From: Ruminococcus sp.
GTDB taxonomy: Bacteria; Bacillota; Clostridia; Oscillospirales; Ruminococcaceae
DNA length: 64,000 nt
Reading direction: 5' to 3'
Assembly (NCBI RefSeq): GCF_024692365.1
Contig: NZ_JAILMR010000044.1
Location: forward strand, 1 to 64,000
The position numbers and the translations under genes are program-made. Below are positions 15,159 through 35,182 of the stretch, one piece after another (positions within the stretch are counted from its first letter, which is position 1; the number at the start of each line of letters is the position of its first letter). Below the pieces are notes generated by a model that did not search any database, was not told where the DNA came from, and saw only the letters and a program-made list of their open reading frames with translations.

Positions 15159-15267
15159 GTTGCCGTCCGATGTGACGGCTACTCCTTTTATTATTAAGTT
15201 GATGATAGCATATTTGGGTGAGGATGTCAAGGTGATAGCATAGCAGAGCTGAGATAAGAATGCCAAA

Positions 15268-15343
15268 GAGTAGAGCTTTTGATCAAACTTTTCGCGAAAA
15301 GTTTGCGAGGAGTTTGAGGGGCGGAGTCCCTCAATCACCAAGG
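15268..15343 (+). repeat. Left terminal repeat of a 621-bp gene-free element
   Basis: Starts GAGTAGAGCTTTTGATCAA, includes the perfect 20-bp palindrome at 15285-15304 centred on TTTCGCGAAA, then hairpin TTGAGGG-gcggagt-CCCTCAA. It aligns over about 75 bases with the reverse complement of 15816-15888. Differences between the copies fall in paired positions of both hairpins and preserve pairing. Confidence 0.75.
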
Positions 15344-15346
15344 CAA

Positions 15347-15450
15347 GATACCAAAATGTACTACAAAGTACCAGAGCGAACGAAATGATACCAAAAGGTG
15401 CGCGGGCATACCAACTTGTACGAGCGTGTACCAAAATATACGACCGTATC
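15347..15450. repeat. 10-bp-period degenerate repeat array A
   Basis: About ten consecutive units of NNNRTACSAN in strict 10-base phase (for example ATACCAA, GTACTAC, GTACCAG, ATACCAA, GTACGAG, GTACCAA, ATACGAC). It lies in non-coding DNA and is flanked by inverted arms GCGCGGGCAT (15400-15409) and ATGCCCGCGC (15469-15478), with CATACCAA and TTGGTATG nested inside. Related arrays occur at 22.39 and 28.41 kb. 10 is not a multiple of three, so it is not coding. Confidence 0.8.
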
Positions 15451-15480
15451 ATTTGGTATGCGTGAACGATGCCCGCGCAT

Positions 15481-15713
15481 GAAATCGGACAGCGAAGTGA
15501 ATCCGATTTCTCGACCCGAGGGACGAGGGGCGACCTGATACCGCAGTACGTCTGAAATTAACGTTTAGCAACTGTACTGCGTAACAGCCATGTTCTTATC
15601 AAAAGTACTGCCGCTGACAATGTCGCCCCTCTCTCCGTTCGGGTCGAGCCGTCAAAAACGCTATCGCTGTTTGACGGCGGTCGCGGACAATATCTCCGCA
15701 CGAAGTTTGTCCG
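15481..15713. repeat. Nested inverted repeats inside the 621-bp element
   Basis: In order: GAAATCGGA/TCCGATTTC (15481-15510); a 26-bp imperfect pair of arms at 15511-15534 and 15622-15647 (both containing CGACCCGA and AGGGGCGAC or their complement), enclosing about 87 bases; CCGTCAAA/TTTGACGG (15649-15677); CGGACAA/TTGTCCG (15684-15713). The density of hairpins suggests a MITE-like or structured-RNA element. The 131-codon minus-strand ORF across it is Arg-rich and has no family signal. Confidence 0.65.
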
Positions 15714-15815
15714 TGTGGGATTATTTTGTTCACGCTCGGAATTTTGGGATTGCCCGCGCCGTGTAATCGGAAGATAGTCTGCTATTGCTTTCTTTGTGTT
15801 CACATCGCTTTTGTG

Positions 15816-15888
15816 CCTTGACCGAGAGGCTCTGCCTCTCGAGCTCTCCGCAAGCCTTTCGCGAAAGGCTTGACCCAAAGCTCCCCTC
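15816..15888 (-). repeat. Right terminal repeat of the 621-bp element (inverted copy)
   Basis: The reverse complement reads GAGGGGAGCTTTGGGTCAAG and then the perfect 20-bp palindrome (15852-15871) AAGCCTTTCG plus its complement, then GAGAGG-cagag-CCTCTC. Compared with the left copy, AAACTTTTCG became AAGCCTTTCG with matching changes on the other arm. Confidence 0.75.
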
Positions 15889-15971
15889 CTTGGCAGTTCA
15901 CACTCACGTTCTGCTACCCTCCCCCTCCTAATCACCCCCTCCACTTTTTTCACAAAAACTACCTCACCCTA

Positions 15972-16000
15972 TTGACATATATGCCAAACCGTGTTATACT
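15972..16000 (+). promoter_or_regulatory. Upstream promoter of the hisC operon
   Basis: TTGACA (15972-15977), 17 bases, TATACT (15995-16000). Confidence 0.75.
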
Positions 16001-18923: not shown

Positions 18924-19940
18924 ATGAAGATCTTAGGAATAGAAAGCTCTTGCGACGAAACAGCCATATCCGTTACAGAAAACGGCAGAACTGTGCTTTC
19001 AAACATCGTCGCTTCACAGATAGATGAACACAGGCTGTACGGCGGAGTGGTGCCTGAGATAGCTTCGCGCCGCCATGCGGAGAATATCTCATGGGTGGCA
19101 AAAGCCGCACTTGAAGAAGCAAACTGCACCATGGACGACATCGATGCAATAGCTGTTACCTACGCTCCGGGTCTGATAGGCGCTTTGCTGGTAGGTGTAA
19201 GTTTTGCCAAGGGACTGGCAATGAGCACCAAAAAGCCCCTCGTGCCTGTACACCACATTGCAGGTCATATCGCTTCAAACTACATATCCCACCCCGACCT
19301 TGAGCCGCCTTATCTCTGCCTTGTGGCTTCGGGCGGACATTCCCATATCGTTGAAGTCAAGGATTACACCCACTACCACGTTGTCGGCAGAACACGCGAC
19401 GATGCCGCAGGTGAATGTTTCGACAAAGTGGCGAGAACTCTGGGCTATGAATACCCGGGCGGAAAGTTCATCGATGCCGCTGCAAAACTGGGCGACCCCA
19501 AAGCCTACGATCTTCCCAAGCCCCGCGTGCAAGGCAGTGAGTACGACCTCAGCTTTTCGGGACTGAAGACCGCGGTGATAAACCTTGTACACAACGCCGA
19601 ACAGAAAGGCACTCCCATCGACCGTGAGGGTATGGCGGCTTCTTTTCAGGCAACGGTTGCAAGGGCACTGGTAGATAAGACTATGCTTGCCGCTGAACAT
19701 CTCGGCTACAAGACCATAGGTCTTGCAGGGGGCGTTTCTGCAAATTCGGGCGTAAGAGAACTTCTGCAAAAGGAATGCGACAAGCGCGGGTTCAAGGTAT
19801 ATATGCCCGAGCTGAAATACTGCGGCGATAACGGAGCTATGATATCCTGTCAGGGCTATTACGATTATCTCGCAGGCAAGCGCGCCGACGGTTCCCTCAA
19901 CGGTATCGCCACACTTTCACTTGATGCCATATCTGAATAA
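18924..19940 (+). CDS. tsaD: tRNA t6A37 threonylcarbamoyltransferase
   Basis: Transfers the threonylcarbamoyl group to A37 of ANN-decoding tRNAs together with TsaB and TsaE. The metal-binding HHIAGH, SGGHSHIV, the ATP-binding GGVSANSGVR and the N-terminal ILGIESSCDETA are intact; 338 residues is normal. The track start at 18903 precedes the Shine-Dalgarno CGGAGG, so ATG 18924 is correct. tsaB and tsaE are not in the window. Confidence 0.97.
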   Translation: MKILGIESSCDETAISVTENGRTVLSNIVASQIDEHRLYGGVVPEIASRRHAENISWVAKAALEEANCTMDDIDAIAVTYAPGLIGALLVGVSFAKGLAMSTKKPLVPVHHIAGHIASNYISHPDLEPPYLCLVASGGHSHIVEVKDYTHYHVVGRTRDDAAGECFDKVARTLGYEYPGGKFIDAAAKLGDPKAYDLPKPRVQGSEYDLSFSGLKTAVINLVHNAEQKGTPIDREGMAASFQATVARALVDKTMLAAEHLGYKTIGLAGGVSANSGVRELLQKECDKRGFKVYMPELKYCGDNGAMISCQGYYDYLAGKRADGSLNGIATLSLDAISE

Positions 19941-35166: not shown

Positions 35167-35182
35167 TGTTCCACGTGGAACA
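35167..35182. other. parS-like centromere site 1
   Basis: TGTTCCACGTGGAACA, a perfect 16-bp palindrome that fits the ParB-binding pattern TGTTNCACGTGNAACA. It lies in the 97-base gap between the acp and hypothetical genes. ParB/Spo0J sites cluster near the replication origin. Confidence 0.75.

Follow-up and report, generated by a model that had tools for sequence, protein, structure and literature searches.

A double element of hairpin chains in a divergent gene gap

The window (the whole analysed stretch of 64,000 nt from Ruminococcus sp.) contains, between a metallo-beta-lactamase-fold gene on the left and a divergently oriented aminotransferase gene on the right (both assigned by Pfam), an element with a 635-bp core at 15261-15895. 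The core is bounded by TGCC...GGCA and consists of two hairpin-chain units of ~280 nt each, joined tail-to-tail to form a double. Its inverted ends (15261-15337 and 15819-15895; 77 nt each) are 75 % complementary, and each carries a perfect palindrome (15284-15305 and 15851-15872), as recognized in the first-pass annotation, albeit of 22 bp instead of the 20 bp given there, as well as the second hairpin described, with stems differing between the ends (15314-15334 vs 15823-15841). The limits proposed at first (15268-15888) had to be widened to those of the core, and a relative lacks a larger stretch still (15233-15941); weaker conservation extends ~14 nt outward of the core ends in the conservation profile of the collected ends. 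The promoter-like sites of both neighbours lie outside the core, and the element is situated upstream of both. The features of the locus are as follows (strand in brackets, where assigned):

15202-15230 (-): promoter-like site of the gene to the left, beyond the element (11/12 matches)
15233-15941: stretch in whose place R. albus AR67 (G005) has 21 bp, with near-identical limits in a second relative (G032)
15245-15260 (+): outer left end (GAGATAAGAA), weakly conserved according to the conservation profile
15261-15895: core of the double element, TGCC...GGCA; the end model R1 (see below) matches both ends, at 15249-15351 (+) and 15808-15907 (-)
15284-15305 (+): left H1, 22-bp palindrome CAAACTTTTCGCGAAAAGTTTG
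15314-15334 (+): left H2 (TTGAGGG...CCCTCAA)
15341-15398 (+): left linker with TACCAAAA-type repeats, belonging to array A, which is not tandem; this variant recurs in other copies
15399-15479 (+): left H3 (TGCGCGGGCAT...ATGCCCGCGCA), inner arms nested
15481-15510 (+): left H4 (GAAATCGGA...TCCGATTTC), apical loop GAA
15511-15533 (+): left H5 (TCGACCC...GGGGCGA)
15541-15552 (+): left tail CCGCAGTACGTC, based on the tails of 43 single and 53 double units
15553-15597: centre between both tails, by its position between annotated modules
15623-15647 (-): right H5
15648-15678 (-): right H4 (GCCGTCAAA...TTTGACGGC), apical loop GATA
15682-15760 (-): right H3, imperfect
15823-15841 (-): right H2 (CGAGAGGC AGA GCCTCTCG)
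15851-15872 (-): right H1, 22-bp palindrome CAAGCCTTTCGCGAAAGGCTTG
15896-15912 (-): outer right end, weakly conserved according to the conservation profile
15972-16000 (+): promoter-like site of the aminotransferase gene to the right, beyond the core, from a promoter scan

The element has no coding capacity: the 131-aa frame at 15558-15953 (-) is without Pfam match, and searches of the element yielded neither an Rfam match (even at E<=1) nor a tRNA, in agreement with its initial description as gene-free. The long arm pair, reported as 26 bp, was recovered at 15406-15430/15437-15461 with 76 % complementarity. The supposed 10-base array is not tandem, since TRF at score 30 detected no tandem array in the element; the TACCAAAA-type repeats form two-copy families only (spacings of 40 and 80 nt), which correspond to linker and H3 of a single unit variant. 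An intrinsic terminator was dismissed, as the single terminator-like match (15162-15179) falls outside the element and none inside, and so was a plasmid or phage origin, since a search of 72,556 plasmid records and 50,697 phage records yielded no similar DNA.

Folded as single-stranded DNA, the left unit reaches z = -4.67 (0/200 shuffles as good) and the right unit z = -2.84 (1/200 shuffles as good). Since the complement of the left unit folds nearly as well as DNA (z = -4.01), overall fold energy picks no strand.

Unit architecture, stems and apical loops

The unit is an oriented chain of ~280-330 nt comprising outer end, TGCCAAGG, H1, H2, linker, H3, H4, H5 and tail CCGCAGTACGTC, the tail sequence carrying ...TACGTC. 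Of the 110 collected ends, 46 were read inward from the head (H1-H2) to obtain this module order; 55 fully parsed units served to make HMMs for the head and for H4-H5, which were mapped over the fetched loci. Loci display one of two oriented layouts, i.e., head-H4/H5 in case of singles (~300 bp) or head-H4/H5-H5/H4-head in case of tail-to-tail doubles (~500-760 bp), and there are two further mini-copies, 68 bp and 80 bp long. Of the 49 loci of the source genome (G000), 19 were called as doubles and 30 as singles. Inverted terminal repeats are confined to doubles, singles being devoid of them.

H1 occurs with the stems CAAGCC/GGCTTG, CAAGCT/AGCTTG and CAAACT/AGTTTG, and in a fourth type with CAAGCCT/AGGCTTG around a GC-GNNA-GC tip. 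RNAalifold predicted 13 pairs on the alignment of ends, three of which, all in H1, underwent two-sided changes that keep the pair. This low number is partly due to the stem lengths of H2, which shift the alignment; the covariance model proposed at first pass for the collected ends (R1; 35 sequences) could be made, but was therefore built on the structure of H1 alone. For H4, 100 hairpins were parsed from 130 hits (30 unparsed), 69 of which pair at 8 (n = 11) or 9 (n = 58) of 9 positions, and 29 with 0-4 pairs are taken as mostly bad parses; eight different perfect 9-bp stems are present among the 100. Distinct H4 arms, suspect parses included, average 5.03 pairs compared to a shuffle mean of 3.85 (maximum 4.54 of 500); a count requiring G..A loops and perfect stems is circular and was excluded. 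The diverged family of G014 contributes further H4 stems. Arms of one stem mostly vary in matched fashion, and pairing is usually kept in further homologues. The earlier conclusion that compensatory change shows selection for base pairing is nevertheless too strong, as matched arm change can also be obtained by module exchange or by template-switch correction of quasi-palindromes, and one copy (L052) carries H4 arms in its right unit that do not match.

Apical loops on short G-C stems were counted with no requirement set on the loop and with an internal loop allowed in the stem. On the unit strand, 65 of 116 are of the G..A type (GNA or GNNA), compared to 1 of 116 on the complement strand, loops of related copies being non-independent observations. 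By size, G..A accounts for 23 of 55 three-base and 42 of 61 four-base loops, the latter representing 35 GNYA and 7 GNRA. The 719 control stretches hold just 14 such hairpins, 2 of them with G..A. If only uninterrupted stems of at least 5 pairs are scanned, a stricter search in which these tips go unseen, little loop signal appears (7/128 on the unit strand vs 1/128 on the complement). Among individual modules, G..A loops were found in (i) 89 of the 95 parsed H4 (59 GNA, 25 GNYA, 4 GNRA, 1 longer; 32 of 127 unparsed), (ii) 94 of the 96 parsed H5 (2 GNA, 9 GNYA, 13 GNRA, 70 longer; 31 of 127 unparsed), the sole module in which GNRA leads GNYA, and (iii) all 29 H1 of type 4 (28 GNYA). The rule fails for H2 (AGA) and for H1 types 1-2 (CGCG), and is by eye absent from many hairpins of order-wide relatives; the small G014 sample has 3/10 G..A loops vs 0/10 on the complement.

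For RNA, a stable tetraloop of this shape would be expected to follow GNRA. DNA mini-hairpins whose loop is GNA or GNNA and whose stem has at least two G-C pairs are described as extraordinarily stable in the consulted part of PMC4686876, and a title cited in PMC9969394 names d(cGNNAg) as a stable DNA tetraloop obtained by selection. The 65 of 116 apical loops conform to this definition, and the rule agrees better with the stable mini-hairpins published for DNA than with tetraloops of RNA. Confinement of G..A loops to the unit strand, with GNYA mostly prevailing over GNRA, speaks for folding as DNA and singles out one strand.

Copies, sites and adjoining repeats

Further copies of the ends, as anticipated, are abundant in the source genome (3.68 Mb), with at least 114 matches to R1 (141 of 1634 candidates scored) and at least 91 BLAST matches to the whole element (40 of 130 candidates scored). 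With 141 candidates scored per genome at E<=0.001, where weak near-threshold matches may be due to chance, R1 yielded at least 85 matches each in G032 and G005, at least 61 in G017 and at least 16 in G031; under these settings, 20 of the 29 genomes of the genus contain at least one match and 9 none. As plain DNA, the 83-base end matches in 9 of 29 genomes of the genus and in 4 of 31 of a different genome set. Across the order, R1 with stricter filters (E<=1e-5) detected 8 of 245 genomes (source genome included), belonging to 5 of 127 genera, the relatives outside the genus being weaker. Long matches between copies are only ~69-90 % identical, hence no recent burst is visible.

Heads resembling H1-H2 recur as GGTCAAGCCTTTTTCAAAAGGCTTGCGGGG...GGGGCAGAGCCCC and similar in G059, G176, G123, G138, G118, G152 and G246 (loci L221-L238; at least 16 copies, several genomes), where they lead into other hairpin chains. 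One locus of G014 (L209) harbours three double elements within ~7.6 kb, with differing stems and the same layout.

Copies are intergenic, without clear strand preference of the units relative to neighbouring genes, and some are common to different species (L071 with L105; L050 with L119). Of 24 genomes searched, just G005 and G032 have both flanks aligned side by side (85-90 % identity), and both lack the element of the window between these flanks. By the position of a shared copy, G032 fits R. albus KH2T6. The two sites without element are not clean: 21 bases in G005 and ~53 in G032, including AATTCATA-like sequence, occupy the vacant site, so that the difference may also reflect loss or replacement. 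Target-site duplications, likewise looked for, were not found in the 24 doubles listed (one without left flank), the best direct matches measuring 0-6 nt at inconsistent places.

Three candidate partner enzymes were rejected, since none tracks the element: Y1 (PF01797) is present in 8 of 14 genomes, alike in carriers and non-carriers, and five fetched Y1 loci are without head or H4-H5 match; reverse transcriptase (10 of 18 genomes) and Rep_trans (1 of 18, below cut-off) have no link to it. Among the fetched loci, neither a gene-bearing copy nor an autonomous transposon with shared ends was seen. Locus L207 of G014, with 2.5 kb between two heads, was discarded as a candidate gene-bearing copy, since by eye its two main frames resemble ordinary genes, presumably for a Rex-like repressor and a lipoprotein.

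Of 190 heads, 41 have a tract of the octamer AATTCATA on their outer side, with the same orientation throughout (0 reversed); none of 43 tails has one beside it (background 0/400 window stretches). The tracts accompany 17 of 27 singles vs 0 of 38 double heads in the source genome (Fisher p 4.5e-9), the contrast being weak in other genomes (8/27 vs 4/38, p 0.06). A total of 56 tracts comprises 38 that run into a head and 18 that do not, several head-less ones retaining the same GTTGGCAGGGC...GGATAGAATG lead. The window itself has a AATTCATAATT tract without head at 19242 (-), and related heads in G037 (L193-L200) are preceded by 63-67-bp repeats composed of AATTCATA tracts and ATTATTGGCATGCATTGGAGAATGCCGT.

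The suggestion that the window copy might be a partition-like site is not borne out, as no parS-like motif lies within it. The one of the window, the 16-mer TGTTCCACGTGGAACA at 35167-35182, has 31 copies in the source genome, 20 of which form arrays with ~47-bp spacing (contig C85:440-3520) at ~1.5 kb from a double element (C85:5007-5590); 4 of the 11 other sites adjoin tails of single units (C30, C48 twice, C124).

Interpretation and relation to known systems

Among the three initial guesses, a non-autonomous mobile element is best supported, by the dispersed copies and by its absence from this site in two relatives. The main reading, to which a probability of about 0.5 is assigned, is that of a non-autonomous mobile-element family of the Ruminococcus albus group acting as folded single-stranded DNA. 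Dispersal, the hairpin chain and the strand specificity of the loops are direct observations; from these features we infer movement, an enzyme provided in trans and a unit strand working as folded single-stranded DNA. This strand would be exposed in its folded form during replication or transfer, whereupon a trans-supplied enzyme would recognise the fold, most likely via the head, and paste the strand into non-essential intergenic DNA without target duplication. Copies could swap entire hairpin modules by recombination or template switching, easiest at shared loops, and tail-to-tail doubles may arise from two units processed together or from a strand switch at the tail. More tentatively, the family may belong to a class of selfish elements that has not been described before and is represented by relatives throughout the order, i.e., chains of DNA-stable mini-hairpins that would move folded and single-stranded, be recognised by shape via the H1-H2 head and swap modules under the GNA/GNNA rule, the oriented AATTCATA tract of singles possibly representing a second defined end.

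That nothing but replication errors (quasi-palindrome correction, template switching and inter-copy recombination) spread the hairpin repeats and kept them perfect, requiring no dedicated enzyme, is considered unlikely. This would agree with the missing partner gene and target duplication, and with the heavy mosaicism of copies differing by entire hairpin modules, including the mismatched H4 recombinant L052, but leaves the fixed order and orientation of the modules, the conserved tails and the one-strand GNA/GNNA loops unexplained. Quite improbable is a structured non-coding RNA, or a regulator acting on RNA as attenuator, processing or stability element, that has been copied to numerous operons, despite the RNA fold of the right unit (z = -2.79), the intergenic position and the matched stems: this guess is weakened by the loop rule, with four-base G..A loops mostly GNYA instead of GNRA, and by the absent Rfam match; moreover, no terminator-like site lies within the element, doubles place both strands at one site and the window copy is located upstream of both promoter-like sites. 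Host-kept REP/BIME-like chromosomal sites, bound by a nucleoid or topology protein and favoured between divergent promoters, are very unlikely, for although the 19 doubles with neighbours called occupy 10 divergent, 9 tandem and 0 convergent gaps (singles with both neighbours called: 5/28 convergent), the divergent excess is weak against the baseline of gap lengths in the window (P about 0.035) and R1 matches among R. albus-group genomes vary widely (16 to 114 among the candidates scored).

In a rumen cellulose degrader, a single gene-free repeat present in numerous copies shapes the DNA between genes. The strand-specific loop rule provides a directly testable sign of DNA rather than RNA folding being kept, and the dispersed copies offer a ready collection with which to look for an enzyme acting on folded single-stranded DNA.

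Novelty is judged here from Rfam, plasmid, phage and paper searches; in the accessible portions of the open-access PMC literature, no paper on such a repeat in Ruminococcus was found. REP/BIME sequences with their RAYT proteins (IS200/IS605-type) are non-coding intergenic hairpins recognised as single-stranded DNA (PMC3733652, consulted in part). The excerpts consulted on REP/RAYT (PMC3733652) contain no mention of Ruminococcus, Clostridia or Firmicutes, and those of PMC10969869 name neither Ruminococcus nor Clostridia. The present family shares with REP/BIME the high copy number of non-coding intergenic hairpins and the occurrence as single and inverted-pair forms, but differs from REP/BIME-RAYT in its ~300-nt units with five hairpins and in the lack of a linked Y1 gene. 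A GTAG or CGTC tag at the foot of the hairpin is characteristic of the REP/RAYT system; the unit tail here carries ...TACGTC. Like MITEs, the elements are short, gene-free and present in many copies, with inverted ends; unlike MITEs, they show no target duplication, single-ended copies are common and no parent transposon occurs among the fetched loci. Rickettsia palindromic elements and mitochondrial double-hairpin elements are small hairpin repeats, nested and mosaic, from which the family differs in that its chains are ordered and much longer, its bacterial host belongs to another order and its loops follow the GNA/GNNA rule. Finally, the loops resemble d(GCGAAGC)-type DNA mini-hairpins in combining GNA/GNNA with at least two G-C pairs, the latter being known as a physical motif and not as a repeat family.
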